Source: Branchiostoma floridae
Taxonomy: Eukaryota > Chordata > Leptocardii > Amphioxiformes > Branchiostomatidae
Reading direction: 5' to 3'
Assembly (NCBI RefSeq): GCF_000003815.2
Contig: NC_049991.1
Span: 13,245,133 to 13,309,132, forward strand
Length of the DNA stretch: 64,000 bases
The notes below the pieces were generated by a model, which saw nothing but the letters and a program-made list of their open reading frames with translations, was not told where the DNA came from and searched no databases. Position 1 is the stretch's first letter. Each line of letters starts with the position of its first letter. A program made the translations under genes and the position numbers. Positions 1 to 30,100 of the stretch are shown in pieces.

Positions 1-1003
1 ACCCCCTACAACAGAACCTCCCACCAGTGTACCCCCTACTACCGAACCTCCCACAACCGAACCCCCTACTACAGAACCTCCCACCACTGTACCCCCTACT
101 ACAGAACCTCCCACCACTGTACCCCCTACCACAGAACCTCCCCCAACTGAACCCCCTACTACAGAACCTCCTACCACTGTGCCCCCTACTACACAACCTC
201 CCACCACTTTACCCCCTACAACAGAACCTCCCACCACTGTACCCCCTACTACAGAACCTCCCACCACTGTACCCCCTACTACAGAACCTCCCCCGACCGA
301 ACCCCCTACTACAGAACCTCCTACCACTGTACCCCCTACTACAGAACTTCCCACAACCGAACACCCTACTACCGAACCTCCTACCACTGTACCCCCTACT
401 ACAGAACATCCCACCACTGTACCCCCTACAACAGAACCTCCCACCACTGTACCCCCTACAACAGAACCTCCCACCACTGTACCCCCTACAACAGAACCTC
501 CCACATTCGAACCCCCTACAACAGAACCTCCCACAACCGAACCCCCTACTACAGAACCTCCCACCACTTTACCCCCTTCTACAGAAACCCCCACCACTGT
601 ACCCCCTTCTACAGAAACCCCCACAACCGAACCCCCTACAACAGAACCTCCCACCACTTTACCCCCTACTACAGAACCTCCCACAACCAAACCTCCTACT
701 ACGATACCTCCCACAACCGAACCCCCTACTACAGAACCTCCCACGACCGAACCCCCTACTACAGAATCTCCCACCACTATACCGTCTACTACAGAACCTC
801 CCACCACTGAACCCCCTTCTACAGAAATCCCCACCACTGAACCCCCTACTACAGAACCTCCCACAACCGAACCCCCTACTACAGAACCTCCCACAACCGA
901 ACCTCCTACAACAGAACCTCTTACTACTTCACCTCCCACTACAGAGCGTGTGACAACGAATCCTCCCACAACAGCACCCCTCACTACCGAACCCGCCACT
1001 ACA
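1..1003 (+). repeat. 30-bp coding minisatellite ([10 protein letters not shown] type)
   Basis: About 33 near-identical 30-bp units of the form accccctactacagaacctc plus cc-accactgt encode the decapeptide [10 protein letters not shown]. It is the distal part of the mucin domain. The same periodicity creates long open frames in other frames and on the other strand; these are artefacts. Confidence 0.9.
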
Positions 1004-4000: not shown

Positions 4001-5538
4001 ACGGACTCAGTCAGTCCGACTACCCAGGCCCGCACCACAACCACGAAGCCTGTATCAACTGTACAAACTACCGAATCTCCAACAACGGTACGTCCTACTA
4101 CCCAGGCTGCTACCACAGCAACATCCTCAACCGCAGCTCACACCACCCCATCGCAGACTACAGCCCGGACTACTTTGACGTCACAACAGTCCACCATTAG
4201 ATCGACTGCTCAACATACAACAAATGCAGCAACGAGTACCGAGCAAGACAACTCAACTACAACAGGTATTGTTCATTAGGTCTACACCAATGGGTGATTT
4301 CTATATTTTCTATTGCTAGGCCATGATATTATCTGCAGAATAGATTGCCAGTAAGTATTCTATGCCAGATAGTTTCTTTTGAATGTAAAGACGGGTATTT
4401 GGTCCCGAAATCGTCACACTTTCAAAAGAGAGCAAAAGACTTTTGTTGTATAAAATTACGTTTACACTAATACCCATTAAAATCTCTGTTGTAACAGCAG
4501 TGCCTACTACATTGACGACGTTAGCGTCAACAACAAGAAGAGGAGGAGTGCCTGCATTTGGTAATTCACTTTTTCGTCAATAATGGTTTTAGTCAAGGTA
4601 CATTACATCCCATGCTTAGTAATGTTACATGTATTTGATGTTACATTTGGATATATGCTAACACAAGAAAAGCAGATGTAGATCATTAAGGAACGTTATT
4701 TTTCTAAAGAAATGCGGTGCAAAGAAAGTTGTTACAGTAAGGCTTTATAAGCATGACCATGATCTGAAAAAATGAACCTTACTTGTAGGCTTGTTGTATA
4801 GTTAAGATTAAACCAGTACACTACCATTTTCCACAGCATCTTCAACTAACATTTACTCGGATAAGTGATATGATACGACATCTCAAAAACACTAACAAGC
4901 TCTCATACTTTGTTATAGTCTCCGACCTGGTGAAGTCCAAAATCAGGATCACGAACAAAGTCTTCCAGTCGGAGTTTGCAGACAAAACCTCCGAGGAGTA
5001 CCTGAACATAACCGGGTCTATAAAGACAGTGGTACGTGTATCTTTATTTTGTTGTACAAGTTTAACTGCGGGGTATTAGACACTTTGAGATTGCTATGTA
5101 CATAAGCAGGAAGTGTTGAAATAAAGGCGTTTGTGGGCATTCTATTCCACATGTATGTAAACTCGAAAATGATAATAATGTGACCGGTGTGACAGCGATC
5201 TCGCCCCCCCCGCGATCTCGCCCCCCCCGGGGGGCGAGATCGCTAGCGTTTTCGCCCCCCTCTGGCGTTTTCGCCCCCCCCCCCCCCCCCCCTGGGGTTT
5301 GGCCCCCCCTCCCTAGGGATATCCTTCCCGTTTNNNNNNNNNNNNNNNNNNNNNNNNNNNNNNNNNNNNNNNNNNNNNNNNNNNNNNNNNNNNNNNNNNN
5401 NNNNNNNNNNNNNNNNNNNNNNNNNNNNNNNNNGCTCTTAATCCTATTGCTGTGATAATGATTAGCACCTGTCTTGTTACCTACTTTTGTATATATATAT
5501 ATATATATATATATAACTTTTGTATATATAAATAAATA

Positions 5539-5615
<77 letters not shown>

Positions 5616-8567
5616 TTTTGTATATATATACCTACTTTTTTACATAGCCTTAAGATACTTAACTTGCAGCTTGTTACTTCATATAAATCGAGCTACCTGG
5701 AACAATATGGTACTTGGATGTCACGTATATAGTGTGTTACCTGGTATCTATATATACGTGACACCTTAGTATGTTAAGATGAGATACAGTACCTGTGAAG
5801 CCGATCCTACCTGGGTGGGTGCAAGCACACTTTGCATTGAAATAAAACAGATACATTTTTGTTGTGAATTTGTGGTGACTTTTATTAACATCACGAACGT
5901 ATATTAACACATGCATATCAACACACCTGTTGCTGAGAGACACAAAATGCACGCGCTCTTGAGAGATGTATCTTTTCCACAAATACACACAGAATTCGAA
6001 ACGCTACCCAAAATATAAAGTGAAACTTCTTGGCGAACGCAACAATAGGAACAATGCACTCGTAGATTCGAGCAAAACTGCACAGTGCAGTGTGGTGATT
6101 AGGCTCTCACACATGAAGTAGAGATATTGCACGTCGCGTAGGGGGTTAACACTCTCCTCTTTGAGCACAAATTGAGGATATTTGCATCATTCTCGGAGCG
6201 AGCCTAGTATAAAATGTGTGTCTCCATTATCTATGAGATTATGTGTAAACCTTATATAATACTTNNNNNNNNNNNNNNNNNNNNNNNNNNNNNNNNNNNN
6301 NNNNNNNNNNNNNNNNNNNNNNNNNNNNNNNNNNNNNNNNNNNNNNNNNNNNNNNNNNNNNNNNTCTTGTAAATGATGCGGAATAGAACGTATTGTATAC
6401 AGAATATTTTGCACAATGGTTCTGTACCTGTGTTTGTTGGTTAGTCTGTCGACCAAAATAGCATAATGGATCCTATACTTATATCACGTCAATGGACGTA
6501 ATTGTTGGCTGACGAAATGATTTCATTCTCAAATATATTTCATAACTAATTATTTTTCATAGATGACAACATGTGCTAATTACAGATACATTTATGTAAT
6601 CTGCTTGTGTCACTGAAACAGAACTTCCCTTTTTTCTTTTTACCTTCACATACCATGATATAAGGGATAAGTGGCATGGGCTTTACGAAATGACATGCAA
6701 AAATGCAAATTAGCACATAATTCGCATGATTCAGGAGACGAATATGTAATTCTATTGTTTCCATGTTGTGACTTTAATACACGTAATCTATGTAATGTAA
6801 AGGTTATGGAAGGTGAAACATATCAGATAATGATTATGAAAATGAGATGCTGATTTGCATAATTAATGTCAAAGTACAAAAATTCTAAAGTGCAATGTGC
6901 AAATTAATTGTGCACCACTATGTATAGACTGTGCAAATGCGCAAGTCATTTTCTTAATTCAGGACAAAATGTCATCATAAAATGCAGCTAAACGAAAGTA
7001 TCTGCACACGTGTTAACTCTAACGTGTCAATTACAGCTTCATTTGCATAATGAATGAGACTAGATGACACTATAAATCTGCAAGAGCTAAAAATATTTAA
7101 TGGAGGTATGATGTGATTTGTACGAAGCAAAAGTAATGTAACTTATAGGTTTATTGGAGATGCAAATCACTAGAAGGATGCAAATCACTGGAAATCCCTA
7201 GCGATTTCGCCCCAAGAGGGTAAGGGGAGGCCAAATCATTAGCGATTTCGCCCCGGGAGGGGGGGGGGCGATCTCACTAGCGATTTCGCCCCGGAAAGGG
7301 GGGGGGGGCGAAATCACTAGCGATTTCGCCCCGGGGGGGGGGCGATATCACTAGCGATTTCGCCCCGGGGGGGGCGATATCACTAGCGATTTCGCCCCGG
7401 GAGGGGGGGCGAAATCACCAAAGGGGGGCGAAATGGGGGGGGGCGAAATCCCTAGTGATCCTGCCCCGGGGGGGGCGAAAACACTAGTGATTTTGCCCCC
7501 GGGGGGGGCGATATCACGGGGGGGCGAGAACGCTGTCACACCGGCACGACTGCAATATATCTGCATGTATTTTTAAATTTATGATAGAGAGAAATCACAC
7601 TAAAACTATCTTATCCACAGTGATCCTTCAGTGAAGCATACGGGCTATTGCAACTATATATCAATAGTTTGTATTTTGAAGAAATGTCTTATTTTCCCAT
7701 TGTAGTTGACCGATTTTCATCAGAGAGCTTTGGGCTCCAATTTCCAAAGTGTGGAGATCCTTGGACTCCTCAATGGCAGCCTGCTCGTCGACTACGTCGT
7801 GCACGTCATACTGGACAGCGGGGTGACTCCGCAGGAGGTGAAGGAGACCCTTACTGACGAGCTGCAGGCAGTCAGCTACACCAGTGGGGGCTTTGACTTT
7901 GATAGTTCAATCATTGTTTCAGGTTAGAAACATTTATAACTTTATTCATAGCTAACGGTGTCATAACGTCCAGTACAGTGGCGTTTGTGGAACTGTTGAA
8001 ATAGGTTGGTTAAACTTGAGTACAGTGCCACATTGCCCCGTCTGTCCAAAAAATAACGTTGCACTGGCTTGGAGTAGTGTCGACATGGCTTCTCTCCTTA
8101 TTGATACTTAAGTTCTCTCTTCGCTCTATCCTTCGTATTGTCGCCTACGGATGATAAATCGAAATAACAAAAATGTGAAAAGAAGGTTTCATTTGTTACC
8201 ATTTTCATCTCCCTCAGTTTTTTTACTATTGACATCTGATTTGGTCTCAACATTCGTAAAATTCTATTCACCAATACACGAGAGTTCCAGTAGCGGACTC
8301 TTAAGATAGTATCTGTACAGATTCGTACGTTCTGTTAGGTTTGCCCTGAGATTTTTGAAACAACACAGGTCTCCTAATCTAGGGCATTATTTCCCTCCAC
8401 CCCACCCGCTCCCCTCTCTACAGACCTTGATGAGTGCGCGTCATCTGATCGGAACGACTGCGGGGAACTGTCCACGTGCACCAACACGGACGGGTCGTAC
8501 TTCTGCTCCTGTCAGGAAGGGTATCGCTTCGTCTTCCAAGCTGGGAAGAAGGATGGGAATGTGTGTG
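1..8567 (+). CDS. Mucin-like protein with SEA and EGF domains (partial)
   Basis: Inferred exons are <1-4265, 4498-4560, 4919-5031, 7706-7922 and 8424-8567. Phases join cleanly (1, 1, 0, 1, 1). The first exon encodes hundreds of Thr/Pro/Ser-rich decapeptides ([10 protein letters not shown], then [10 protein letters not shown], then irregular TTES/TTKP types), the hallmark of a densely O-glycosylated mucin domain. Next come a short basic linker (STTRRGG), a SEA domain split over two exons ([15 protein letters not shown] to the strand [15 protein letters not shown]), and a calcium-binding EGF domain ([29 protein letters not shown], six Cys). In SEA mucins the domain often self-cleaves at G-SVVV; here the site reads G-SLLV. 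The order mucin, SEA, EGF is typical of epithelial mucins and IMPG-like proteoglycans. The 5' end is outside the window and no exon after the EGF was found. An in-frame TAA at 1004-1006 and a frame slip before the gap at 1856 interrupt the long exon; both may be assembly errors. Confidence 0.8.
1856..2508. other. Assembly gap (653 N)
   Basis: A run of N inside the mucin minisatellite. Its length is probably an estimate, so the reading frame across it is not informative. Confidence 0.99.
2617..2819. other. Assembly gap (203 N)
   Basis: Second run of N inside the mucin minisatellite. The base after it begins with a one-base slip (actacgggcc) relative to the unit. Confidence 0.99.
5334..5433. 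other. Assembly gap (100 N)
   Basis: Fixed-length run of N, probably of unknown true size, next to a poly-C tract. Confidence 0.99.
5492..5613. repeat. TA microsatellite
   Basis: Two long (TA)n runs, about 5492-5514 and 5541-5613, separated by ctttTgtatatata-type sequence. It lies inside the 2.4-kb inverted-repeat element. A short Tyr/Ile-rich open frame over it is not a gene. Confidence 0.9.
6265..6364. other. Assembly gap (100 N)
   Basis: Fixed-length run of N in the SEA-domain intron. Confidence 0.99.
7196..7544. repeat. G-rich minisatellite, unit ctagcgatttcgcccc plus G run
   Basis: Eight or so units of about 30-45 bp, each with (c)actagcgatttcgccccgg followed by a run of 6-11 G. Similar units in the opposite sense occur at 5194-5330. 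The G runs could form quadruplexes. The array forms the right arm of the 2.4-kb inverted-repeat element. Confidence 0.8.
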
Positions 8568-9868: not shown

Positions 9869-12826
9869 ATGTTTTACAAGACCCTCTTGGTTGTCTTCGT
9901 CGCACACCTCTGTAGAGGGCAACAACTTGCAGACGAGGCTACGCGGCACAGTGTAATAGTAACCTTCGCTGGATCATCCACATCTGAGGTAAGTTCGTTG
10001 CTTTAACATCGTCGAATAAAAAATCAGGAAAAGATTTTGACAACCGACAATTCTTTAAGCTTAAGTTTAGACTTTGTCTATTGGACTGTTATCAGCGTAT
10101 GTACTCAGTGATAACATAAACGCTACAAAGCACCTTGCAGTTATCACAACTTGAATGATACTTTTGAATGTTGTATGAACTGTCTTTGATATTATATTTC
10201 CCTGCTATATTTTCATGGTTTCTTGTATCTAACTGGTAGACACTGTTTCTTTCCAGATAAATGCAAATTCAACCGCCTTGAAAGAAGTCATCGTAAACGA
10301 AACCAACAAACTGTGTCAACAAGATGATCACAAAGCGAAGTGCTGCAAGGACATAAAGTACACAGAGTGAGTATATTTATTTTATTTAACGTTTTCTTAG
10401 TATTACTATCGTATGGGAAGAAAACATGAAGTAAAGATTCTATTGTTGTAGAATAAATACTTTCAGGGAAAAAAGACTCCAGTATCTTAACGAAAATCCT
10501 ACACGTCATTCACAGAAGATCCCCGGTAAAGGTGTATGTTGATGGAAAAGCCGTCTGCTTAACAACCATGACGTTAGTAAATGTGGTTGTCATAATAGAA
10601 CCTTGATCGTTACAATGGTATGGCTCAAATTCCATATCCCAGCGTCAGTTATAATTGACATATATTTAGCCTTGCGTGCGAATTGGCAGGGTCCGATTCA
10701 AAGACGTTTAATTATTGCAGAACCATAGGGTTTTTACACCTCAACGCAAATATTTACTTCAGATTTACACATTCCAAGGGACATGAAAAATATTCTAGAT
10801 ACATGTTTCTTGGTTCAGTTACGGTTAATTGCCCCAATAGTAACATTCAAAGACTTATATTCACAGAATATAGATGGAATACGAAATGGTGTATCTTTGT
10901 GGTCACATCGAAAGCTTGTTCAGTTCCTGGTTCTAGAGTGGTCCAATAAACATCATGCCATTTGTTTCTCATACATTTTGTCCTTCTTATCTACTTATAG
11001 GCTGGGAAGTGGAGACATCATCGTCCCAGGAACGAATCTGACGGCAGAGGACTACATTCGTTTTCTATCTGTGGCAGGAGACTCTTCAGCTAACACAACT
11101 AGCAGTGTCAAGTGAGTATTGTGTATGATGCTATTGACGACGTCTAAGAAAGTGAACTGAATTGGAATTTCAAAGCAGTAGCTTCTCCTTCGTACTTTTA
11201 AGTAAAAGGATCACGGATGTATGGATTTGTCCCCCTGTTTTGCTTTGTTGTAGACACGTCCAGGGTACGGCTTCCTAATAACAACTGTTGTATTTTTATG
11301 GACATAACTAACGAAATAACATTTATTTCCCATTATAGAGTGACGCTTGCCATCGTTGTGCCACAGGAAGCCGATGAGAATGACCTGTGCCTCGTAGAAA
11401 CACCCAGCCGCAAGAGGAGAAGTACTGCAGAAGACGTGTTCTTGAGAAGGAAAAGGCACAGCGTCACCACAGCTGCCCCCACTGCCGCACCGAACTATAT
11501 CTATCTGGATCCTGACCTGGTCAAGCTGCTGCTGAACTCCAACAGCTTCAGAGCTGCTGTGAACGTAAGCATGTGCCTTTAATGTGTTGAATATATCCTA
11601 TGATTTTCAATACCAACGATGACGAATCTCATGAAAAATTTACAATAGTGTTGTTGGCATTCGGCGTACAAAGAGACGACTAGGCCACCTAGGAATATCC
11701 GCATAACAATTGGATGTATAGTGTTACTGTCCCAAAGCAACAGTGTGCCAGTCAGCACTTAAATAACAAAAGCTACTGCATATAGCGATGATATGATCTA
11801 CATCTCGTTTGGGATAACATTTCTGAGACAGTCTTTGCTCTCAGGACCCCTCAAGGTGGTATCTGGGGCATCGGTGCACTTGGGCATCGGCGGCACGAAT
11901 TTCAGAGATAAAGAACGAATTTTCTTACGTTTTGTGTCCTTTGTTGTCGATCGTCCAAGTCATACTCTTAAGTATTACGCAATATCTTAATTAGAAAAAT
12001 ATCGGCGCAAATAACACAACAGTGCCGCAGTAAACGAACCTCGCAGTGCCGCACCGGTACCCCAAGTGCAGTGTGATATCACCTTTAGGTTGATTTTCAA
12101 AATTAGAATGAATGTTGAACCAGACCGCCATTCAGACGCTAATGAAACCACTGTTCTCTTCCCACAGTCCCGGCTCGGTCTCATCTCAGCCTCAGTCGTC
12201 AAGTCTGATGAGAAGAACTGCACCTTTGAAGACGACATCCAGCCGTGGGTCATTGCCCTCATCACCATCGCCTCCTTCCTCCTTCTCCTGCTGCTGGCTG
12301 CCACTATCATGATGTGTCACAATGGGTGCGTCAGATCTATCTCTCTATTATATATTATAATTTTAAACTGTACATTCGTACACAAAATAAAGCGCTTACC
12401 AACAAGCTTTCAGTCCTCTGATGCTTGCCAAGTTGAAATGGTCCTCCAAAGCCTATTTTATGTCGTTGATTTCAAAACTGTATGTTATATATGTTGTAAG
12501 GACTGTATTGTATTCATGCATGAATTTTATTCCCGGTTAAAACTTTATTCTTAAAGTACTAGATGACTCATATATTTTCTTGAAATTACAGTCCTTATAC
12601 GACTTTATGCTATCTATACAAGCGAAGTACTAATAAACCACCCCGTTCTTGTCGTTACAGATCAAAGAATAGCCCCTATTCCAAAGGGTCGATGGGGTCA
12701 CTCATAAGAGTGTCACCAGGTCCAGAACAAGCAGGGACTTCATACGGAACATACAACCGTGTAATCACTCCGACTTCATACGGAACATACAACCGCCCGA
12801 TCACTCCAAAACTGGCCTTTACTTAG
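9869..12826 (+). CDS. Small type I membrane protein, paralogue A
   Basis: Six exons: 9869-9988, 10257-10366, 11001-11111, 11339-11564, 12168-12325, 12661-12826. All have GT-AG borders and join in frame (phases 0,2,2,0,2) to 296 residues. Residues 1-17 form a signal peptide (MFYKTLLVVFVAHLCRG). The lumenal part has a beta-like strand (HSVIVTFAG), an amphipathic helix, the motif C-x8-C-C (CQQDDHKAKCC), several N-glycosylation sequons, then strand KVTLAIVVPQ. Two basic sites RKRR and RRKR flank the octapeptide STAEDVFL and look like proprotein convertase sites. A Thr/Pro linker and the motif YLDPDLVKLLL follow. The single membrane helix is WVIALITIASFLLLLLLAAT. The cytoplasmic tail carries a direct 12-residue repeat (TSYGTYNRVITP, TSYGTYNRPITP). 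I do not recognise the family. The strand-helix order could be a SEA- or ferredoxin-like fold, which is only an inference. The gene is first of three tandem paralogues. Confidence 0.85.
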
Positions 12827-15608
12827 AAGTAGGGCACAGGGCGCTGTTCATTCAGCTACAGTTCGCCATCTAGTGCCATTTCAATGTCATTCACATTCGG
12901 AAGGAATATCCGGGAACAACCATAACAACCGAATTGATTTCTGAAATATTATATTGAAAAACTACATATTACAGTATCTGTTTGGCGCAGAAGAAATCAT
13001 CCTACCTCACATGGCCTAGGTGGACAAATAAGTCATTATGATTCAAGACCAATCCAATGTTTAAACTTGCCACACTTACATGTGTCATGACAACAGAAGT
13101 CAGGTATCCTGTAGTTCCATCTGTCTCTCTAGGCACGTAGGATTTGCAGCGCCTACCTTTTCGACAAAACGTCTCACTGCCCCACGACATTGAACTTGAA
13201 GCACATATGTTGTGAATGAAGTTATCTGTTCTCCATATCGCCAGACATTTATGTTGAGTTGCATCATTCCTTCCATTGCTATCACATGTAAGGTATCTTC
13301 GTTGTTTAAGTTTTGCTGGTACGTGTACTAGAAACGATAGTGTAGTTACGTACAGCCGTAAACAGTAGATACTAATATAACATTTGTACATGCGGTAAGC
13401 GGAGAATAACATTGTACTACTTTTGTATCATTTCATTGCTGGAAGTACGAAGAAGTGAATATGGATAAAATGTATGAGGTGTAAACCACACGGTTACATG
13501 GCTTTTCACGAGGGCATTGTATAGATCAAGAGTTATCGCTTATTTTTGTATCAATTGAGAAATAAAGCCTCTCAACACTGTCATTTGACTGTTAGCAGCT
13601 TTCAATGTTTGCCATTGAATGGCGATGTTGTCACCGCTTGCATTTGATGTTTGACGTCAATAAAGGATGCATGAACAGCCGTATCTAAATAAGTGCCTCT
13701 TGTACTATTTTACTATTCTTTTTAAGGACCTGGTAGTCCCCATGACTCCTACGACAATGCGTTAGTTACCGTTGGAACATTCATGTCTGAAAGATTAAGA
13801 GTTGCCAATATCAGTGATAACATACAGCTACCCAGGATGATATCCTGTAATGATGGCTTAACGTTTTGCGGCAAAATGATAAAGTTGAAGCGTTTTAAGT
13901 TTACCTAGCTAGCTTTACACGTTTTCGTCCAGCCAATTACTAAACATATGAATGCAAAGCTTACTGTATCTGTTGTTTCTTCGGGTTATCATAAATTAAG
14001 TATGATATAGAGAAACGCACTTAGAATTGATATAACAATAAACAACAAAGTTTATTGGAAATTCTTGCCCGAAGGTGACAAGTGACAAAAAGATTAATTA
14101 TTCCGATGCGAAAATTTGTTTCTATATTATTTATCTTCAAATCTACGTAACAGATGAACAAATTCAATTTCGTTTTCTCCCTCAATGCCAACCTTAAATA
14201 TTAGGCTGTTTTGACAAGATCTTATGCAGTGGATGTAAGACTTTTGTGATAGAAAGAGAACCAATCAATAAGGAAGATTTATTTGACTCTAGATTTGGAA
14301 AGATGTTTTTCAATATTCGCTTCATTGGCGAATAATGCCTTAAGATATGTGTTAGGGTGTGACGCAGATGAGTTTGAATAACAAATCAAAACAACTATTG
14401 TATGTCGTCCATAGAGACCGTGTTTCTGCGGTCAGTACAATAACAACGATATCACGCAAACCCTTTGTACTTAACAAGCCACCTGCGGTCATCAATAAGT
14501 CCCTATAGCCTGTAGAGATACATATCCTGTTCTTCAGCAACAATGTATTTTCAAAGACATCATTTGCATTAATTGAAGGTTTAGAACCAGTTTCATCAGG
14601 TAATTCCAATTGGGAACCGTTTTTATGAATTTTTATTAAGAGATAAACTGCTCTACATCTCAAAATTTGGAATCGCCAGAATTTTCGATTGAATCAAGTT
14701 GAGAACAGATTATCTCTTCAAATTTTAATTCGAAAACTCAGGTGAATGTTGATGCTTTGATGAATAGTGCTGATAGTATCAGTCTTATTTTTCAAATAAA
14801 AATGATGAATATATTTTTTGTCGTTTTTGTCCGAGATTTGCAATGCATACGTGATCACATGAACTGTAATGACCAATTTATTCATTTATGAATTCTCAGG
14901 GCGGTCCCTTCAGTTAACTTGACTGATTTCGAAGTTAGCTCTTACAAAATAATATGGTGATGTTTTGTTTGCAGAGAAGGATCATGTCCATGAGATATCA
15001 AATCATGTGGCTGTTTTGAACAATAACGTGTTTTCGGGTGACGGCAAACAGCATTAGAGGCAATCTACAAGAGATTTGGGTCCTGGGGGACGTTTATTGC
15101 GTGCTTCAGCAGATTCTATAACAACGGGTGCAAACGTTCCTATTCAACGAGCTATCAAGGCAACAAAGGGATTCTTGTTCCTACAAACAGGATTATCATT
15201 GGATACGACACAAACACAAAACGAACAAAACATTTGTTTAATGCATTGAGACGGTTGTCGACTTGATATTGACAGGGATCGTGCGCTGATATGCAGAATA
15301 GATTGTCAAGGGCACTCTGACATGTACCGATCCAGGTAACTATCAACAAAAGGCGTAGCGTAGCAGCGGAGCTGTTAAAGTAGAGATGGTCTCCGCAGAT
15401 ACCAAAGATACATACAGGGATTTAAAGTCCATTGTGTGTGTTAGTGCCCCAGATTACATCTGTCTCTCAGCTTGGGCTCAAGAGCACTGAGAGATATTTC
15501 CTACCCGAGCGTGTTTTTCACCAAAAACTTTTCACAAAGTTCGAATATTGCTGTTTCGTTTTGTGAAGGAGGCGTGCTTTGTTTGGATCTCGGTTTTGTC
15601 ACGGAACG
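12827..15608. other. 3' UTR and intergenic region, no gene seen
   Basis: The first 700-850 bp are probably the 3' UTR of paralogue A. The rest, to the start codon of paralogue B, is AT-rich. I see no supported exon; open frames on the minus strand (13002-13412, 14352-14663) have no recognisable motif. Confidence 0.5.
13659..13664 (+). terminator. Candidate poly(A) signal of paralogue A
   Basis: An AATAAA hexamer about 830 bp after the stop codon, in gtcAATAAAggatgc. A second AATAAA at 13561-13566 is closer. Either could serve; no transcript evidence is available. Confidence 0.4.
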
Positions 15609-18086
15609 ATGTTTTCCAAGGCCCTCTTGCTAGTGTTTTGTGCACACGTCTGTGTCTCGGTGGAAATTCCCAAGGATAATGAGAAGAAGAGCGTTTACGT
15701 CAACTTTGCTGGCGCCGGCACCTCAACGGTAAGTGTTCTTCTCATCGTTTTAAGTACTGTAAAGGACGGACTCTTGTACATTGTAGAAAGAAATTAAACT
15801 TAGCTATAAAACTATACGTTTTTGTTAGAAATTGTGTTTATTATTATCATTCTGGTGATCCTATGAATTCATTCTCATTCAATTTTATTTACTGTTACGA
15901 TTATGCTACATTATGCTTGTAGTGAAATGTTCTACATGTAAACATGTTTCCTTGTTTACATATGACATATATGTCTATCATGATCATATTTTTATCGTAA
16001 AATATGTTATTTTTTGCAGATTCAGACAAACATATCAGACATAAAAACGCTCGTAAGGGACGAAGCGAACATCTTCTGCAATGCTACCGACTACAAGAAA
16101 AAATGCTGTAAGGACACCAAATATGAATCGTAAGTACACTTTACCACGAAGCTTTACAAGAGCATAGGATACATTCGACATTAGATGCTCATATCTTCAA
16201 GTTCGGAACGTTGAATATATCGAGGTCGTAGACTGCATAACTCTTAAATTAACCTATCTTTCTACTACAATGTAGCTTTTCATCTAAAATAGTTCCAAAG
16301 ATTCAACACAATCTTGCAAAATCTGAGGCTGCTCTTCGAACAAAACCTTCCTGACGAAACATATTATTATTATGTCGACACAACCTGTCCTCAAAAACTG
16401 TTTGTTTTCAGTTGCTACGGCTTTGTCAATTCTGAGGAATATTAAAAGTCATTCTTTGTTCCTTGTGTCACAAAAGACAATGTCCGTGCGTGTTGAATTA
16501 TGGAGCATACGTCAGAGCGAGTTATTGAGTTGTGGATGAACTTATTCATCTCCATGTGATGGTTATAAAGCTACGTGCACAAGAACAATGAACATTGTAG
16601 ACATTTCCTCAATGCCAGGGTTCAATGCGTCTGAATCATTTATGAGGGCTTTATACATGCAATGAAGAATTGTTTTCCTTATCCCCTAATGTTAATAGAT
16701 GAACACAAAGTTTATGAGTACAATCATGAAAGTTACGCTCAGTGCACGTTAACTGTCGTCCAACTTAACGTATCCGTTTTGAATTGCAGCCTTGGTAACG
16801 GGCCGATGATCGTGGCTGACAACCATTCCGCCGAAGAATATGTGTTCTTCTTGCACACGGACGGCGATGTCAACGCCAGTGCAGACAGCAACGTCAGGTA
16901 ATCATTCCGCTCTAGAAAGCAATTAAAAACTTAAGCAAGAATGTGCGTACGTTGTGTGATAAAGTTCTTTGTTTCCTTGAGCAGTTTATAAGCTTGATTT
17001 TGTTGAAAGCTAGTATTTTCTCTCCTTTGAGTCGTGTTGCTTGCGAGTAATGAGACACAGGAACTCATCATCATCATCATCACCACCATCATCACCATCA
17101 TTTCCTTCCACACCTTCCACAGGATCGAGGTCGCCATCTTAGTGCCCCAGGAGCACCATGACAACGAGCTGTGTGTGCTGGAGGATCACGCCCGCAGGAG
17201 GCGGAGTGTGGAGGCAGTCATCCCCCACAGGATGAAGAGACACCCCCACAGCACGGAGAGCCCCACCCCGGCCCCCAGCTCCGTGTACCTGGACCCGGAC
17301 ATCACCAAGGCTATCCTGCAGTCAAACAGATTCCGAACTCAAGCCGCTGCCGTGAGTGTCTTTACTAACCGCAAAGGTTGCCTTATACCCCCCTCATATT
17401 AGGCGAAAATCGATCGAACGACGAGTCTGCGAGCTCTAAATTACGAGGAGGCATGACCCTGCTGCCGACGAAGAAATGGCAGAGTTCCCCCCTTCCCGTC
17501 AGGGTAATGCCTCCTCGTAATTTAGATTTCGCAGACTCGTCGTCCGATCGATTTTCGCCTAATGTGAGGGGGGTATAAAGACAATCCCAAGTAGATCTGC
17601 AAAAGCTGCATATATTGAACCTTTAAGTCATGCTACTAGAATGTGTTAAAGTAACGTTGGTGTTTTGGATACTCAAATTTTCTTCCAAGACAACGTATTC
17701 AAAGGAATTGGTCTAACAGTCCACTGTATTCATACTTTTGTTTTGCACCTGTCCACTTTCAGAGCGGGTTTTACGTCGGCGAGGTGTCCAGGGCGGACGG
17801 GTTTGACAGCCCCTGCCGAGATGGTAAAAGAGACGATGACGTCCCGTTCCAGCCGTGGCTGATTGCTCTGCTGACCATCATGTTCTTCCTACTCCTAATC
17901 CTGTTCGCAGCAACCATCATAATGTGCTGCAACAGGTCAGTTCGTTAGTCATCAATTCTTAGGCGCTGTCAATGGTTGTCGTCTTTCCTTTCCATTCTCT
18001 CTCTTGTATCTTTGTATATAATCTCTCTCTCCCTCTCTCTCTCTCTCTATATATATATATATTTATATATATATGTGTGTGTGTAT

Positions 18087-18121
<35 letters not shown>

Positions 18122-18393
18122 CATATATATAAATATATATGTATAACTTTCTCTCTATATAGAGATGAATAGATAGATAGATAGATAGGTATATTCAAGA
18201 GAAAGAGAGAGAGAGATTGCTTTAAACCCAGTTTGAGACTGTTAATTACGTGATGCGCTTTGACTTACATAAAGCCAGATATAGCTCTTGCTTGATGATA
18301 TATGGTGACGTTTTGTCCCTTATTGTCTCTTCTAGGAAGAAGACCAAAGGCTACTCCAAGGAACTGATGGGATCGAGAGTAATTCCACAGTAA
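15609..18393 (+). CDS. Small type I membrane protein, paralogue B
   Basis: Six exons: 15609-15728, 16020-16129, 16790-16897, 17123-17351, 17763-17935, 18336-18393, in the same phases as paralogue A, giving 265 residues. The signal peptide is MFSKALLLVFCAHVCVSV. The lumenal region keeps strand SVYVNFAG, the C-x8-C-C motif (CNATDYKKKCC), EEYVFFLHTDGD and strand IEVAILVPQE. Two basic sites RRRR and RMKR flank SVEAVIPH, again exactly 8 residues. Then come SPTPAPSSVYLDPDITKAIL, one membrane-proximal Cys (SPCRD), the helix PWLIALLTIMFFLLLILFAA and a short basic tail ending KELMGSRVIPQ. The tail is about 35 residues shorter than that of paralogue A and lacks the YGTYNR repeat. The in-frame TTG at 15579 is not needed as a start, because the ATG at 15609 matches the start of paralogue A. 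Function unknown. Confidence 0.85.
17383..17578. mobile_element. Fold-back miniature element in paralogue B intron 4
   Basis: About 195 bp forming a near-perfect hairpin: arms of about 70 bp, from ttataccccc...aattacgaggaggca to its reverse complement tgcctcctcgtaattt...gggggtataa, around a spacer of about 45 bp. It lies 31 bp after the donor site of exon 4. The TA-containing ends suggest a Tc1/mariner-like target, which is an inference. No coding capacity. Confidence 0.75.
18020..18205. repeat. Compound microsatellite (CT, TA, GT/AC, GATA, GA)
   Basis: Successive (CT)n, (TA)n, (TG)n, (AC)n, (TA)n, (GATA)n and (GA)n tracts in intron 5 of paralogue B, roughly palindromic as a whole. Short open frames across it are artefacts. 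Confidence 0.9.
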
Positions 18394-21057
18394 AGTGGGG
18401 TCTTCAGCAGTTGGTCCAGTAGCAGTGCCTTCTGTATAACCTTAGAGACTCGGAGGACAGCCAAGGAAACTTGTCTTTCTATTTCACTTCAGTAATCTGT
18501 ATAATTTGCCATCTTAGTATCATAAAATCATGGGGTGTATAACAGTAATGCGAGAACAGTGTGAAAGATACAACTTAAGGCATGTCAGCTAAAATTAAAG
18601 GTTTAAGGATTTACAAAAACCTATCCTTTGTTGTATGGAGATCACGTGGGGTTCGACAGATTGGCATCTGAGGAAAGGACGATGAAGAAAGCGAAGGACT
18701 CTAACGGTGTATGTAAACTGGGTGGGCGCTTTGGGACTGATGTTTGATCTGCAATGACCACATGGAGCAGAACTGAATGATACTTAAGCGACCATTCCTT
18801 AAAGAAGAAGGAAGCTTTACCATCTTGGTGTGACTTTGATATTAGGCTGCTGCAAGCTGAATTCCTAGTCATTGAGATCCCATACTTGAAAACAATTTGA
18901 CGCCGTAATATTTCTAATTCTATATTGTATCGGGACATGCACAATAACCAACGTTATCGATTTATCGTGGAGAAATGAGATGAAACGTGAAATGTTATTA
19001 TATATGTCACAGTGGAGATCACGATCCAGGAGAATCGCCGATCCTCCTAGGAGAGATCACGATCGGAGTTTCTCCTAGGAGAATCGCCGATTCTACTAGT
19101 ATAGATTGCGATCGGGATTTCTCCTAGGAGAAACTACAATAGATATAGGAAACAGATCCCGTGTCACTTCTACAATGTTAACTTCACCGAAGACTACCAC
19201 ACTTGAGTCACTTCTGCAACTTTACTCAATGCACACTTTTACTCAATGCTACCTCACTATTGTCACTTCTACAACTATACTCAAGATACCATACTGGTCT
19301 TCTTCTTCTTTCGTGTCATCACTACTGGTGTCACTACAACTATACTAAGGCAACCACACTATCATATAGTATATAGCATCATTTCAACATTACCACATTT
19401 GTGTCTTTCCCAGAACTATACTCAAGGATACAAGGAACTGGCTGGAGGGAGAAATTTGTCCTTATATGTCTTGGGGGCATGCAAACTCTGTTTGACACCT
19501 GTTTGATCACTTTACAATGGTTATTGGTCTTCAAAAGTTGTGAACTGATGCCATACACGTCTGACTAGTGAATGTACTCAATAGGTGTGAAATTGTGAGT
19601 AATATCTTGAAACTCTGCTTGATTTTTTGACACCTGTTTGACAACTTTACAGTTGTTATTGTTCTTCCAAAGCCGTGAAATTTGCATACTGACACATTGT
19701 TTGATCACCTGTTGGTGTCTTTCACATATTATAAGATTTTTGCCACTACTTTAAAAGAAATTACTTTATCAGAAATTACAGAAAACATACTCACATGAAA
19801 TTTACCATGAAAGTGATGCTATATACTATAGTGTACCTTGAGTAAAGTTGCAGAAGTGACTCAAGTGTGATAGTCTTTGGTGAAGTTAACATTGTAGAAG
19901 TGACACAAGTAGGCTTGAGTGTAGTTGGTAATGAGTTAGTAGGTTTGCATTAATACCGAATAAAATCATTGTTTATCAAAAAAATTATTGCTGTTTCATA
20001 CATCCTAGCATCGTTTGAGTTTGGATCGGAGTTTCTCCTAGGAGAAACTCCGATCGCGATCTCTCCTAGGAGGATCGGCAATTCTCCTGGATCGTGATCT
20101 CCACTGTGACATATACATACCGAGAGAAATATGTATCAGAATGTTACCTGAAAGTCAATGTGTCTTGTGTGTACGTTTGAATTTTCCAAATATGTTTGAT
20201 ATGTCTACGTATGTAATATCTACGGTAGTAACATGTTAGAATATAAGTGACAACAACACTTTGTTATTGGAACATACAGTTGCTATGGTGATTCACTCGG
20301 CACCAGTGACGCTCCTGTTTACGACGTGCTGACGTCATCACACAGTAGCAATCTGATTGGTGAATCATTATGTGCCAATCAGTAGTGTAGCCTTTTAGGC
20401 CAGAATGGTTGTTTCATCCGAAGCAACTTTGTTAATAGTACTGTAATTAAACTCTACTGCTTATACGTTATTTGAGTCCAAGTTATACATGACAACGAAG
20501 AAGCAGATTTGTTCTCTACTTGTCCTTATATACTATTTACTTTACCAATATACTTATATATAATATAAGTGATCTAGTTGTTTTCTTTATCTCTTTGTTG
20601 TGCATTTCCTGTGTATTACATCTGTAACATGTAACGGGGACAGAAAATCCTGGATGTATGTATATGACGCACTGATGACGGGAGCAAAGGTGTTTCTTGT
20701 TCATTGTACATGGAATAAACACTATACCTGCTACAAACGGATCTCATTCCATGGTCCTTATTCATCTATCTCCTCATCCGTTTGCGATTGATAGTTAGCA
20801 ATCTCTGTTGTACATATAAAATGAATACTTACGTTGGACGTCCAACAAATAAAACAGTTCCAGTTTGGACACTGAATCACAGCAATCTGTACATGTTAAC
20901 TTTTTATGAATTACATCTTTATGTACAGTTGTACATTCATTGACAATTCTGTCAGGAATAAAAGTGTGCACGCTTGGTGTATTTGTGTCTAAACTTCCCA
21001 AACTCTCACTGATTTTTGTGATAAAGGTGATTATTCTTGTATATCGTTGCTTTGCAG
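18394..21057. other. Intergenic region between paralogues B and C
   Basis: Contains the presumed 3' UTR of paralogue B (an ATTAAA at 18594-18599 is a possible poly(A) signal) and the 1.1-kb fold-back element. It probably also holds the unidentified signal-peptide exon of paralogue C, for which no convincing candidate was found. Confidence 0.5.
19005..20111. mobile_element. 1.1-kb fold-back element
   Basis: The ends are inverted copies: TGTCACAGTGGAGATCACGA at the left and its reverse complement TCGTGATCTCCACTGTGACA at the right, flanked by TATA on both sides. The subterminal arms hold several CTCCTAGGAG palindromes and GCGATCGGAG-type blocks. Inner arms are also inverted (acttctacaatgttaactt near 19165, its complement near 19890). 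No open frame of note. It looks like a large non-autonomous fold-back DNA transposon. Confidence 0.75.
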
Positions 21058-24022
21058 CAAAAGAGTCGAGCAAGGACAGGACGCACAGCGCCCGATTGAA
21101 CATTGTGGGCGCGGCCATATCTAAGGTACGTTCACTGGCACAATTAAGTCAAGAAAAACTGCAAAATGTTTCATACGTGGTCAAAAGCTTGTATGGTTGA
21201 AAGCCATCACCCTTACAAGGTTTTCATTCTAACTCATTTGCAGAGAATGGTATATATTAAAGTGGACACCTTCTTGTTGAGTGTAATCGTTAGATATCTT
21301 GTTATAGCACTGTATATTATGTGAACGATGTGAGTAACAGTGATTGCGATGGCTTTGCACTATCCAAAAACATTATTTGTGTGCTGCAAAGGAATATTAC
21401 AAGACATGGAGACATGGTATGAAGTTACCCGATCTTTTCCACCTCTAGATTGGTCCAAAGAAATCCAGAATCAAGGAACTCATAAGGGATTCGGCCAACG
21501 AGTTTTGCAAGAATAGCGAAAACGCGGAGAGCTGCTGTAAGGGTATCAGCTATGTCAGGTACTAGGACTTCATTTTCAACTGTACAGAAAACATGTTGTA
21601 GGCATACATTTTACATGCATTTACACTTTAAACTGAAACCATTTACGTTCATATCTAAATACATTATACACTTAAACCTTACACCATTTGCGCAGATATA
21701 ACATATCTAATATCAATATAATATCTAATATCTTTGATATCTAATATCTAATACCAGCCAAACGATAGATAACAATAAATACGATTATCAATATGATTGA
21801 TTGCATCATGTTTGAACTTCCAGTCTGGCCTCTGGCAATCTGATCCCGATAACCAGTGCCGCTGCTGAGGAGTATGTGTTCTTGTTGCGAGTGGATGGGG
21901 ACGAGAGCAACACTACCGACAACAACGTTGGGTAAGTTCCATACTGGCAATCCTCTTCACGCACATAGATGGGTGCGGTGAGGGTGGTAGGTCAACGCGT
22001 TAAGTCAGTTAACGGTCATATCTACTCTTTGAATGAGGGTTTTTTTCGTGCCGCCTTTCAACAAAACACAGAAACTGTATACTATCTAGACTTTGATGTT
22101 TACGTATACAGCTAGATCGATGTCCAAACGTCCGCACCGCGTACCTTGGAAGCTGGTACTTTTCGCCGAATGGCCGTTATACATGATACAGGATATATAT
22201 AGAGAGATACAGATACTATCGATGATACTATTAGCCTGGTTACCAAACCCCAGCCCGATCTCAAGTATCTATCGTGCAGAGGTCTGGCAGGATGACATAG
22301 GAACTCTTCTCAATTTTGCCCCTTCTAGTGGGCAAAAAACTCCACCAATAGAACAGTAGCAGGATCAGCAGGAGGCAATTACACCCTACCATGATTGGTT
22401 AAAGACCCCGAACTGTATTTTTTGAATCCATAACAGTGACCACTAAGTACCTGATTCGCTACTGTGATAGCCTGCTGATCAACTGAGGTGTGTTGTAGCT
22501 GGCTACCTGTGGTGTGAGTGGTCATCAATCCTAGGTTCTCCTCCCTCTGATCAAGGGCCTTCGAGAACCTTTCTACAGCCATCCTGCCAGACCCCAACAC
22601 GAAAGATATCTGAGGTTGGGGTATGGTATCCAGGCTATGATACTATTCGTCATGACAAACAAAATGATGTAATTTTGTACCGTCTACAGAATCCAGGTCG
22701 TCTTGGCTGTTCCCAAAGGTGGAGAAAACGGAGTTTGTGTTCAGGACAGCAGTCGTAGGAAGAGAGACGTGGAGGACAACTCCCTTCACCGGGAAAAACG
22801 TGCGGTCACCACGCCTTCGCCCACAGTGGCGCCGGACCTGGTCTTCCTCGACCCGTCACTCGTGAAGACGGTACTGGACACACCTGGTTTCAGGACAAGT
22901 ATGAATGTAAGCAACATTAAGTGGTAATGTTGCCGTATGATAACAAAGAACCTTTAGTTTGCTTTGAAATAAAGAATCGGTCTAACAAAGGTGGAACAGT
23001 ATAAAGACTGATTTCCAAGACTGACCATAAGAGAACGTGAAACAAAGAACTAAATAGCTTCACAATCGCAAAACTCACAGAAGGTTTTCTGCATTCGCTT
23101 ACGTTATCTCATATGGCAGTGATATAACGAGATGATCGCTACTATGCCAACAGAATAGCGGCTATTCGAAGCAGGACACAGTTGACAAGGCTGGACTCCA
23201 GGCTAGCCGTGGTTGAGTATTTACGTATTTGGAGAGTCAGATGGGCCCTATACCTACCAATGGCCTCAGCAATCCTTTAGTCTAACGACAGGTACATTTC
23301 TGTACTCATGTTGACTTTTTTATGACTTACCACCCTTCAGAATGATCTTGGACTGTTGGTTGGACTTGTGGCAGTCCTGGAGGAAAGCGAGTGTGAGGTT
23401 GGTGGTGACCTCCAGCCCTGGGTCATCGGCCTCATCACCATCACAGCCTTCCTCACCCTCCTGCTCATCATCGCCGCTATCGTCATGTGTGTCAACGGGT
23501 GAGTACACACAACACAGGTTATCTCTTTCTCTGTAGTGTCTCTGTCTGAGGAAAGACCGTGGTCTCGTCCTTGGAGTACAGACTATAGAAGGGTAGGTGA
23601 AAGCTAACGAAGATATAGGACTAAAGACACCACTTTCGTTTCAGCAAAATTATCATATATACGTCCCTAATATACAACGAGTTCAGCAAACGTTCTGCTC
23701 TCAGACTATATGTATAGCTTCCATATTCAGAGAATAACATGATGGTGCACTGTGCTGACTTAAGATTTGACCAGCGATGGCTGTTTGAAAACACGATTTC
23801 AAGTGTCAATTCCTGTCCCAATGTGCAAGTTGTCATCCTTAGCCAGACGTCGGCTTGGTAACACGGTATTTGTGACTTGAATAAATTGAGAGCACACGCA
23901 CCGCCATGGTATGGAGGAACACACCCATGACTTGTTTTCTTTCATGCCATAACAGAAAGAAGAACAAAGACTACAGCAGACAGTGGGCCTCCAAGACAAG
24001 AGTTACACCAGTTGCGCAGTAG
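21058..24022 (+). CDS. Small type I membrane protein, paralogue C (first exon not found)
   Basis: Exons: 21058-21125, 21449-21558, 21824-21931, 22690-22906, 23341-23498, 23956-24022; phases after the first border match paralogues A and B. The encoded chain keeps every family mark: SARLNIVGAA strand, C-x8-C-C (CKNSENAESCC), EEYVFLLRVDGD, strand IQVVLAVPKG, basic sites RRKR and REKR flanking DVEDNSLH (8 residues), TPSPTVAPDLVFLDPSLVK, a membrane-proximal Cys, the helix PWVIGLITITAFLTLLLII and the tail KKNKDYSRQWASKTRVTPVAQ. Unlike A and B, the first homologous exon begins at an acceptor (tttgcag) in phase 1. The signal peptide must therefore lie on an upstream exon that I could not identify. 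If no such exon exists, the gene would lack secretion and may be degenerate. Confidence 0.78.
22232..22637 (+). mobile_element. 400-bp inverted-repeat element, copy 1, with 9-bp target duplication
   Basis: Starts TAGCCTGGTTACCAAACCCC and ends in the imperfect reverse complement (GGGGTATGGTATCCAGGCTA). Flanked by the perfect 9-bp direct repeat TGATACTAT at 22223-22231 and 22638-22646. It lies in intron 3 of paralogue C. A second copy in opposite orientation is at 46465-46862. The 9-bp duplication suggests the Mutator-like superfamily (inference). No transposase. Confidence 0.88.
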
Positions 24023-27190: not shown

Positions 27191-30100
27191 TCACTTTGAT
27201 AACAATTCATCCAGTTCCAACACTGTATTAACAGGAAGGGAGCAGGCGTAGTTCTCACATACATATGCCGTAGCTTTGCCATCAACTTTTTTGAGTGTGC
27301 TCAAAACTTTGAGTTTCTCGTACAAGTAGCCATGCTCCTTGCCATCAGCAATTATGAGGATCTTGTTGGGGTTGAAGCTGGAGTGTACACACTGTAACAG
27401 GGCCTTGGTGTCCCGGTCTCTTGGATTTCCAGCAATGATGATCTGAAAAAAACAAACCCAAAACTCATTTATCACTACTATTATAATATATCTGCTGTGT
27501 AATTTCAGTTTCTTATCAGTGTTTGCGAAAGGTAGTGGCACCTTAACCTTTTATCCATTCAAATGTGATATTACTTCATTGACTAATAGATTGACTGACT
27601 GAAAAGTTGAATATCAGAATTACTGTAAATCAATTTAGTCTTTATTTCTTTAACTAAAGTACCTTTAATGGGAACTTTCAATCTGGATAAAAGAATGTAT
27701 TCTCCTTGGTGCTGAACAGGCATCATTTGGAAAATTCATTCTTTCATTCAAAGCACCTTTACTGGAACTCAAAGTACCTTTACTGGAAACTTTCAATGCA
27801 AATCAAAAAATGGATTTTCCAAATGATGGTTGTTCAGCACCAAGGAGAGGTGCTGAACAGCCATCATTTGGAAAATTCACTCTTTCATTCAAAGTACCTT
27901 TACTGGTACCCAAAGTACCTTTACTGGAAAATTTTAATGCAAATGAAAAAAATGGATTTTCCAAATGATGGCTATTCAGCGGCTCTCCTTGGTGCTGAAA
28001 AGCCATCATTTGGAAAATTCATTCTTTCATTCAAAGTACCTTTACTGGTACCCAAAGTACCTTTACTGGAAACTTTCTATGGGAATGAAAAATGTATATT
28101 TCAAATGATGGTTGTTCAGCACCAAGCAGAGGTACTGAACAACAATCATTTGGAAAACCCATTATTTCATTCAAAGCACCTTTACTTGTACCCTAATTAC
28201 CTTTACTGGAAACTTTCAATGGGAATAAAAAAATGGAATTTCTAAATTATGGCATTTCAGCACCAAGGAGAGGTACTGTAACAATGACAGGAAAGTTGCG
28301 TAATACCCCAAATGAAGTAGACAGCTTACCTGTTTGGGTGTCTGCTGGTAGAAGATGAGAGCAGACACCATTTCCGGCAGGGCCAGGGGGATGGCTGCAA
28401 GCCGGGCTCCGAATGCCGTCATCAGCTGCACAGACTTGTTCCTCCATCCTTCATCGTCATGGAAACTGGCTAGTCTCAACAGGTTCCCAGCAGATACAGA
28501 GTTCGCACTGGGTTCTGCACCGTCCTGGTCTGGTAATAACAAGACAAACATTGACCAAATGAGTGTTCAGAATACTTTACACTTAAGATGTATCTGAGAG
28601 GGCATTAATTTGGTATTTTTCAGACATTTAGTAAAATCAGAAATTCTCATCCTAAATGGTGGACCGAATCCTTTTCACCTACAAGACCCAAACACCACTA
28701 ACGATAACCTAGGTCCTTTATCAAGCAAAAAATGAAGATGGGCTGATGGGAATGTGAAAATAAAGGTGCCAACTTATTCTGTAGCTCAACACATAATGTT
28801 TTATTACCATAAAGTAAAAACAAAGTAATATCGATCCAGTGCAGCTCACTGGAAATATATTCTTCCAATGGTTGTGACAAAGAAGATAAATGCAATGTAC
28901 AGCTTTTATAGGTTCATTGTTCTGGAGTAAACCATAGCTTAATGTCCCATCCTAAGGACTGCCGCCCATTCCAGTAGCATGCATGTCAAGTGAGCATGCA
29001 TCCCGAATCATACACACGGCTTCTACTTTCGGACGCAGTGCTGCTAACCACTGGACTATACGTGATACCATAACACACCCCCCCTCCCCATCCACCATTC
29101 CCAGTCTGTCCCTAACCTTCCTTCATCCTGATGAGTACAGAAGGATCTGCCCCCGACACAGTGAAGTAGGCCAGCCCCTCGCTGTCCCAGAACAGCTTAT
29201 CCTGCTTTCTCTGCAGCTACGCAGGGCTGCTAACCACTGGACTATACATGCTACCATACTATTCCCCCCATCCAAGATTTCCATTCAGCCCTTTCCTTCT
29301 TTCATCCTGATGAGTACAGAAGGGTCTGCCCCTGACACAGTAAAGTAGGCCAGCCCCTCACTGTCCCAGAACAGCTTATCCTGCTTTCTCTGCAGCCATG
29401 CAAGGCCACAAACCACTTGACTATGCACGCTACCATACTATCCCCACCCCCCCACCATTCCCAGTCTGTCCCTAACCTTCCTTCATAATGATAAGTACAG
29501 AAGGATATGCCCCCGACACAGTAAAGTAGGCCAGCCCCTCGCTGTCCCAGAACATCTCATCCTGCTTCCTCTGCAGCTACACAGGACCGCTAACCATTGA
29601 GCTATACACGCTACCATACTACCTCCTTCCCCCTATCCACCATTTCCCAGTCAGCCCTAACCTTCCTTCATCCTGATAAGCACAGAAGGGTCTGCTCCCA
29701 ACACAGTAAAGTAGGCCAGCCCCTCGCTTCCCAGAACAGCTCATCCTGCTTTCTCTGCAGCTGGGCAGGGCTGCTAACCACTGGACTACGCATGCTACCA
29801 TAAAAGCCCCACCCCCCAATCCACGATTTTCTGCCTGTCTCTAACCTTCCTTCATCCTGATGAGTACAGAAGGGTCTGCTCCTGACACAGTGAAGTAGGC
29901 CAGCCCCTCGCTGTCCCAGAACAGCTCATCCTGTTTCCTCTGCAGCTGTGCTGCCCACTCCACCCACTCCTCATTATAAGAAGCCTCGTACAGGTCCAGC
30001 AGCCCGCGGATCAGGAACGCATAGTCGTCTGCAAACCCGTCAATGGGGTTGGCTCTGTTAGGGAATGTAAAGTGAAAAGCACTAGTAGTATTATCAGGAA

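Follow-up and report, generated by a model that had tools for sequence, protein, structure and literature searches.

Three tandem amphioxus membrane proteins with paired convertase-type sites, a predicted SEA-like ectodomain and a MAP17-like transmembrane anchor

In the SEA domains of MUC1, Notch2 and GPR126, cleavage falls between strands 2 and 3; after a furin or autoproteolytic cut, the two halves remain together in GPR126, in Notch and in mucins (PMC6954182). Membrane-adjacent domains of PCDH15 and CDH23 have also been called SEA-like (PMC6586460). MAP17 (PDZK1IP1) is a human auxiliary subunit of SGLT2. In the SGLT2 complex, its single helix packs on transmembrane helix 13 (TM13), neither its outer nor its inner end can be seen, and it has been portrayed as belonging to a fixed scaffold that stabilises this transporter (PMC10803289); it also binds SGLT1 (PMC9616851). 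Here we describe three tandem genes, A, B and C, in a 64,000-nucleotide stretch of the Branchiostoma floridae genome (assembly GCF_000003815.2, contig NC_049991.1, positions 13,245,133 to 13,309,132 of the forward strand; the whole stretch is referred to as the window), the products of which resemble both groups. Our preferred reading, to which we assign a probability of roughly 0.5, is that each protein is a SEA-like domain nicked by a convertase into two chains and carried on a MAP17-like anchor.

The three genes lie one after another on the forward strand, each with six mapped exons ending in the same series of phases (0,2,2,0,2), and GT and AG borders were found at 15/15 introns between mapped exons, which bears out the three phase-matched paralogues listed in the initial annotation of the window. 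Gene A (9869-12826; exons 9869-9988, 10257-10366, 11001-11111, 11339-11564, 12168-12325 and 12661-12826, stop included) encodes 296 amino acids, with the stop codon and length checked and the exon borders set by GT/AG and phases; gene B (15609-18393; exons 15609-15728, 16020-16129, 16790-16897, 17123-17351, 17763-17935 and 18336-18393, stop included) encodes 265 amino acids; and gene C (21058-24022; exons 21058-21125, 21449-21558, 21824-21931, 22690-22906, 23341-23498 and 23956-24022) has 241 mapped amino acids. The 5' end of gene C is incomplete: an AG acceptor precedes its first mapped exon, and no candidate for a signal-peptide exon was found upstream in 18394-21040 at the thresholds applied. 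Exon 1 of genes A and B has a signal-peptide-like start, judged by inspection and hydropathy, and a type I membrane architecture is supported. Pairwise identity among the three proteins is 39-46% over the alignment. A profile of the three proteins was run against the six-frame open reading frames (ORFs) of the window of at least 18 residues; the 18 ORFs above its inclusion threshold are the 18 mapped exons that built it, and no further family copies were found in the window. Our conclusions rest on these three paralogues from one genome, and the sequence comparisons covered PDB sequences and family profiles; none of the 38 pattern-matching stretches in IMG/VR codes for a relative.

In each protein, two basic sites stand eight residues apart exactly as the initial annotation had described. 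Site 1, the octapeptide and site 2, all on the forward strand, occupy 11409-11420 (RKRR), 11421-11444 and 11445-11456 (RRKR) in gene A; 17193-17204 (RRRR), 17205-17228 and 17229-17240 (RMKR) in gene B; and 22754-22765 (RRKR), 22766-22789 and 22790-22801 (REKR) in gene C. The pattern R-X-[RK]-R-x8-R-X-[RK]-R occurs three times in the six-frame translation of the window, each time in one of these genes, and is absent from 60 first-order Markov windows of equal size. Arg at P4, Lys or Arg at P2 and Arg at P1, the R-X-[KR]-R convertase consensus, are kept at 6/6 sites in 3/3 paralogues. Among ungapped ectodomain columns holding any basic residue, all three genes share a basic residue in 7/8 within the sites and in 4/30 elsewhere (Fisher p 1.9e-4, a post hoc contrast on three related sequences). 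Three of the conserved Arg positions are encoded by CGN codons in some of the genes and by AGR codons in others, and nonsynonymous (dN) and synonymous (dS) divergence between the genes is 0.49-0.59 and 1.6-3.0, respectively (NG86; synonymous sites saturated). Because Arg codons switch families at such dS values, the pattern argues for selection on charge at the basic sites, which have been kept despite synonymous saturation and look real to us. Since the genes are paralogous, the three pairs represent one origin kept in three lines rather than three independent cases.

The residues at P3 and P2 vary among the first sites (RKRR, RRRR, RRKR) and the second sites (RRKR, RMKR, REKR), and site 2 of genes B and C may be weaker for having Met or Glu at P3. 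This variation speaks for another explanation, namely that the clusters of basic residues form a conserved charged patch for glycan, lipid or partner binding, or that cutting takes place at one site only, the second being a relic. We consider this improbable: all six sites obey the furin rule at P4, P2 and P1, which is more than a loose patch would call for, and both sites fall within a predicted disordered loop, as described below.

The initial annotation had further contrasted the kept sites and spacing with a poorly conserved octapeptide. The basic residues are indeed kept, but the fixed eight-residue interval is weak evidence, because the ectodomain alignment holds 8 gap events, which leave gap-free stretches likely (P ~0.69 for 8 columns and ~0.47 for 16); few indels suffice, and no ruler is needed. 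Nor is the octapeptide significantly less conserved than its surroundings: 0/8 of its columns are invariant versus 41/170 in the remaining ectodomain (P 0.10), and with pairwise identities of 0.12, 0.00 and 0.38, it appears to drift, though not provably faster than the surrounding ectodomain. The same figures bear on the idea that the octapeptide, flanked as it is by two convertase sites, is itself the bioactive product of a prohormone-like precursor. Without an invariant column or a Gly before site 2 for amidation, and present as a single copy in a membrane protein, it is a very improbable hormone, and we rejected this candidate on conservation. Cleavage had been predicted to release a linker or small peptide and to leave a two-chain product; the small peptide is unlikely for the reasons just given, and the two-chain product is the most likely outcome.

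The ectodomain is predicted, at low confidence, to form one SEA/ferredoxin-like domain. Two low-confidence AlphaFold models, one queried with A and the other with C, place the elements in the same order, strand-helix-strand-strand-loop-helix-strand. In the gene A model, exons 1-3 (9869-11111) supply the signal-peptide-like start, strand 1, helix 1, C60, C69, C70 and strand 2, and exon 4 (11339-11564) supplies most of strand 3, C131, the disordered loop with both sites and most of helix 2; exon 4 of gene B (17123-17351, by alignment) and of gene C (22690-22906, by model) has the same layout. Strand 4 and C207 are encoded by exon 5 of gene A (12168-12325), followed by an IQPW motif that resembles MAP17 and the transmembrane helix. 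Exon 5 of gene B (17763-17935; strand 4 by alignment) and of gene C (23341-23498) likewise carries strand 4, a juxtamembrane Cys, the corresponding FQPW or MAP17-like LQPW motif and the transmembrane helix, with the shuffle test given below as the evidence for gene B. The loop spans residues 124-165 of A (predicted local distance difference test, pLDDT, <50) and 104-144 of C, and both sites, at 138-153 of A, are predicted to fall between strand 3 (112-123) and helix 2, which begins at 172, with C alike. A Thr/Pro-rich linker follows site 2. Five ectodomain cysteines are kept in 3/3 proteins, four before the sites and one after; one inter-chain disulfide, for example C131-C207 of A, is possible.

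The fold nearest to both models is that of PCDH15 MAD12 (Z 9.7 with model A over 105 residues at a root-mean-square deviation of 3.0, and 9.2 with model C), followed by Nup54 (8.8 and 8.9 with models A and C, respectively), the collectrin-like domain of ACE2 at about residues 611-727 (8.1 and 7.9), CDH23 MAD28 (7.6 and 7.0), CELSR1 (6.9 and 7.0) and Gpr126 (6.2 and 6.5); IA-2 matches model C with Z 6.8. A 2017 paper by Pei and Grishin reportedly deals with divergent SEA domains and nucleoporin 54. The fold lists do not hold the MUC1 SEA domain, for example, and families missing there are not thereby excluded. A Foldseek search with the predicted fold gave no significant match, and the ectodomain without the loop found nothing among PDB sequences up to E 10. 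The SEA profile of Pfam matched neither the 3/3 full proteins nor the 3/3 loop-deleted ectodomains, although divergent SEA-like domains can escape profiles, and the collectrin profile of Pfam had no match in the proteins either.

Set beside the described domains, the ectodomain would, by its predicted fold, share with MUC1 (autoproteolysis) and with Notch2 and GPR126 (furin) a ferredoxin-like sandwich in which two chains would remain interlocked if a loop were cut. The predicted position of both sites differs, however, lying between strand 3 and helix 2, and an autoproteolytic motif of the GSVVV type is absent, the start of strand 3 reading TSSVKV, DSNVRI and DNNVGI in the three proteins. The missing motif bars only the self-cutting SEA class, since it is furin that does the cutting in Notch and GPR126. 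PCDH15 MAD12 and CDH23 MAD28, which are membrane-adjacent and closest in predicted fold, differ in being only 8-12% identical to the family and in having cadherin repeats ahead of their domains, and we know of no convertase loop in either. The collectrin-like domain of ACE2, with 8-10% identity and a peptidase domain ahead of it, is also distinct. ENaC alpha and gamma offer a parallel in that a short extracellular tract is cut out, with proteolytic release of inhibitory tracts. ENaC subunits, however, are channel subunits with two transmembrane segments, an unrelated domain and a longer tract.

The resemblance to MAP17 resides in the transmembrane exon. Among 177,635 distinct PDB sequences, MAP17 provided the top three matches of the profile built from A, B and C (E 4.9e-4, 0.002 and 0.0024) and the only ones <0.01, the next being desmoglein-2 at E 0.21. 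The aligned part starts ahead of the juxtamembrane Cys, takes in Gln-Pro-Trp and extends into the helix. Family and MAP17 alike have one transmembrane helix and a QPW-x2-[AG]-L-[IL] stretch closely preceded by a Cys, with Cys-x5-IQPW in A, Cys-x10-FQPW in B, Cys-x5-LQPW in C and Cys-x6-LQPW in MAP17. The Pfam MAP17 profile (PF15807; curated cut-off 29.6 bits) scored 26.3 bits (8e-6) with the full gene C protein and 26.9 bits (5.5e-6) with its transmembrane exon alone; for gene A, the values were 14.5 bits (0.037) and 17.8 bits (0.0036), and gene B gave no match, either as a full protein or with the transmembrane exon alone. Aligned without gaps to a MAP17 segment of 25 residues, the proteins scored 59 (A), 51 (B) and 65 (C), and none of these scores was reached in 20,000 shuffles per gene that kept the composition of the juxtamembrane and transmembrane parts, the segment having been chosen after the match was seen.

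These matches have to be weighed against convergence of a short hydrophobic segment, in which case the resemblance would say nothing about ancestry or function while the split SEA-like part would still stand. The comparison covers only 25-44 residues, gene B on its own is missed, and gene A fits DUF6644 better than MAP17 (0.0053 with the full protein and 0.00086 with the transmembrane exon). The transmembrane exons also weakly match other anchors (Epiglycanin_C at 0.021 with C and 0.081 with A, DAG1 at 0.05 with gene B), gene A alone drew four weak PDB matches of which the best, at 0.23, was a ribosome biogenesis protein and MAP17 was third at E 1.1, and no resemblance to MAP17 was found outside the transmembrane exon. 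Against convergence stand the exclusive place of the three MAP17 entries below 0.01 in the profile search, the inclusion of the pre-membrane stretch from the juxtamembrane Cys to QPW in the match, and the shuffles, with the proviso on segment choice already given. On balance, we lean somewhat against convergence, while regarding it as a serious contender.

To judge from its sequences, the family is MAP17-like in the anchor only. We do not class it as MAP17, because it falls below the curated cut-off, has a long ectodomain and lacks the PDZ ligand. MAP17 itself has a short extracellular stretch and a C-terminal PDZ ligand; its PDB chains comprise 56-114 residues and the match begins at residue 7-8, which leaves no folded ectodomain and no convertase loop, whereas the family has an ectodomain of about 180 residues ahead of the helix and C-terminal ends (KLAFT in A, RVIPQ in B, TPVAQ in C) that are not PDZ ligands of the MAP17 kind. 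The cytoplasmic tail of A is longer than those of B and C through a 36-base tandem duplication in the last exon (12736-12807, 88% matches). The label 'unrecognised' that the family had initially received is only partly right: the transmembrane exon resembles MAP17, and the ectodomain is predicted to be SEA/ferredoxin-like. Literature searches for MAP17 in amphioxus, lancelets or invertebrates, for collectrin in amphioxus, for PDZK1IP1 with SMIM24 and for the SEA domain with MAP17 or collectrin returned nothing on the subject among the matches listed, which is no proof of absence.

From this architecture we infer the following course of events. The proteins would enter the secretory pathway through the signal-like exon 1 (A and B) and fold into one membrane-adjacent SEA-like sandwich, a MAP17-like transmembrane helix and a short tail. 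A furin-type convertase in the trans-Golgi would then cleave one or both basic sites in the flexible loop that joins strand 3 to helix 2, a step suggested by the consensus fit of 6/6 sites, to give one chain of strands 1-3 and helix 1 and another of helix 2, strand 4 and the anchor. As both belong to one sandwich, the chains would probably stay together at the cell surface, on the precedent of SEA domains, as a non-covalent and possibly disulfide-linked heterodimer. The octapeptide, once cut out, would be waste, its removal making the nick efficient and irreversible, and the split domain could act as a force- or ligand-sensitive ectodomain. The MAP17-like helix suggests, by its sequence, pairing with a multi-span partner and may pack against a membrane protein such as a transporter. 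A transporter is our first guess because of the parallel with ACE2, for which structure entry titles name solved complexes with B0AT1 and SIT1. The receptor-like role initially proposed is no more likely than one as an accessory or scaffold subunit.

Cleavage might instead serve shedding, with the N-terminal chain (strands 1-3) released in soluble form and the second site ensuring release. Convertase-type sites and the Thr/Pro-rich linker after site 2 are compatible with this, and a study using the SNAPS assay found robust shedding in that assay for most receptors with a SEA-like domain next to the membrane and, for MUC1 and IA-2, in which the SEA or SEA-like domain has no structured neighbour, a high level of cutting even without stimulus (PMC6586460). 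Later shedding is a reasonable rival because of the behaviour of these two proteins, but we think it unlikely, given that the loop splits one sandwich in both models, so that each half would be incomplete on release, and that furin-cut GPR126 SEA resists separation (PMC6954182).

Upstream of gene A, long Thr/Pro/Ser-rich mucin-type repeat ORFs (units such as TTEAPTT) occupy 1-4276 on the forward strand and include tandem arrays of 30-base units, and a calcium-binding EGF exon of phase 1-1 at 8424-8567 (+; Pfam EGF_CA 1e-9) probably belongs to this upstream mucin-like gene. We considered whether gene A is the 3' end of the mucin/EGF gene and rejected it, since this exon, phase 1-1 by its splice signals, cannot join exons 2-6 of gene A in frame (entry phases 0,2,2,0,2) and exon 1 of A has its own ATG and signal-like start, matched in B. 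Between genes B and C, inverted pieces of one sequence, atgtcacagtggagatcacgatcc and its reverse complement, seen by eye at 19006-20113, flank ~900 bases, as in a small non-autonomous mobile element. Downstream, ORFs at 27197-35975 on the reverse strand resemble exons of what we take to be a SPATA20-type thioredoxin-domain protein; of the four scanned with Pfam, one matched Thioredox_DsbH (6e-4, 35643-35975, below cut-off), one Ogr_Delta at chance level (0.15) and two nothing. A 184-base tandem repeat in five copies lies at 29033-29947.

A wider reading, which we regard as speculative and rather doubtful, would make these proteins domain-bearing relatives of MAP17 that serve as transporter auxiliary subunits, uniting a SEA/collectrin-like ectodomain and a MAP17-type helix in one protein, with two convertase cuts splitting the ectodomain in a different loop from that used in MUC1, Notch2 and GPR126, and vertebrate MAP17 would be the remnant left after loss of the ectodomain. 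If true, this would explain how a class of small helper proteins arose and how it works, and MAP17, which works with glucose transporters, and ACE2/collectrin, which work with amino acid transporters, would meet in one architecture. The SEA-like sandwich would, moreover, gain an additional protease position that yields a stable two-chain protein.
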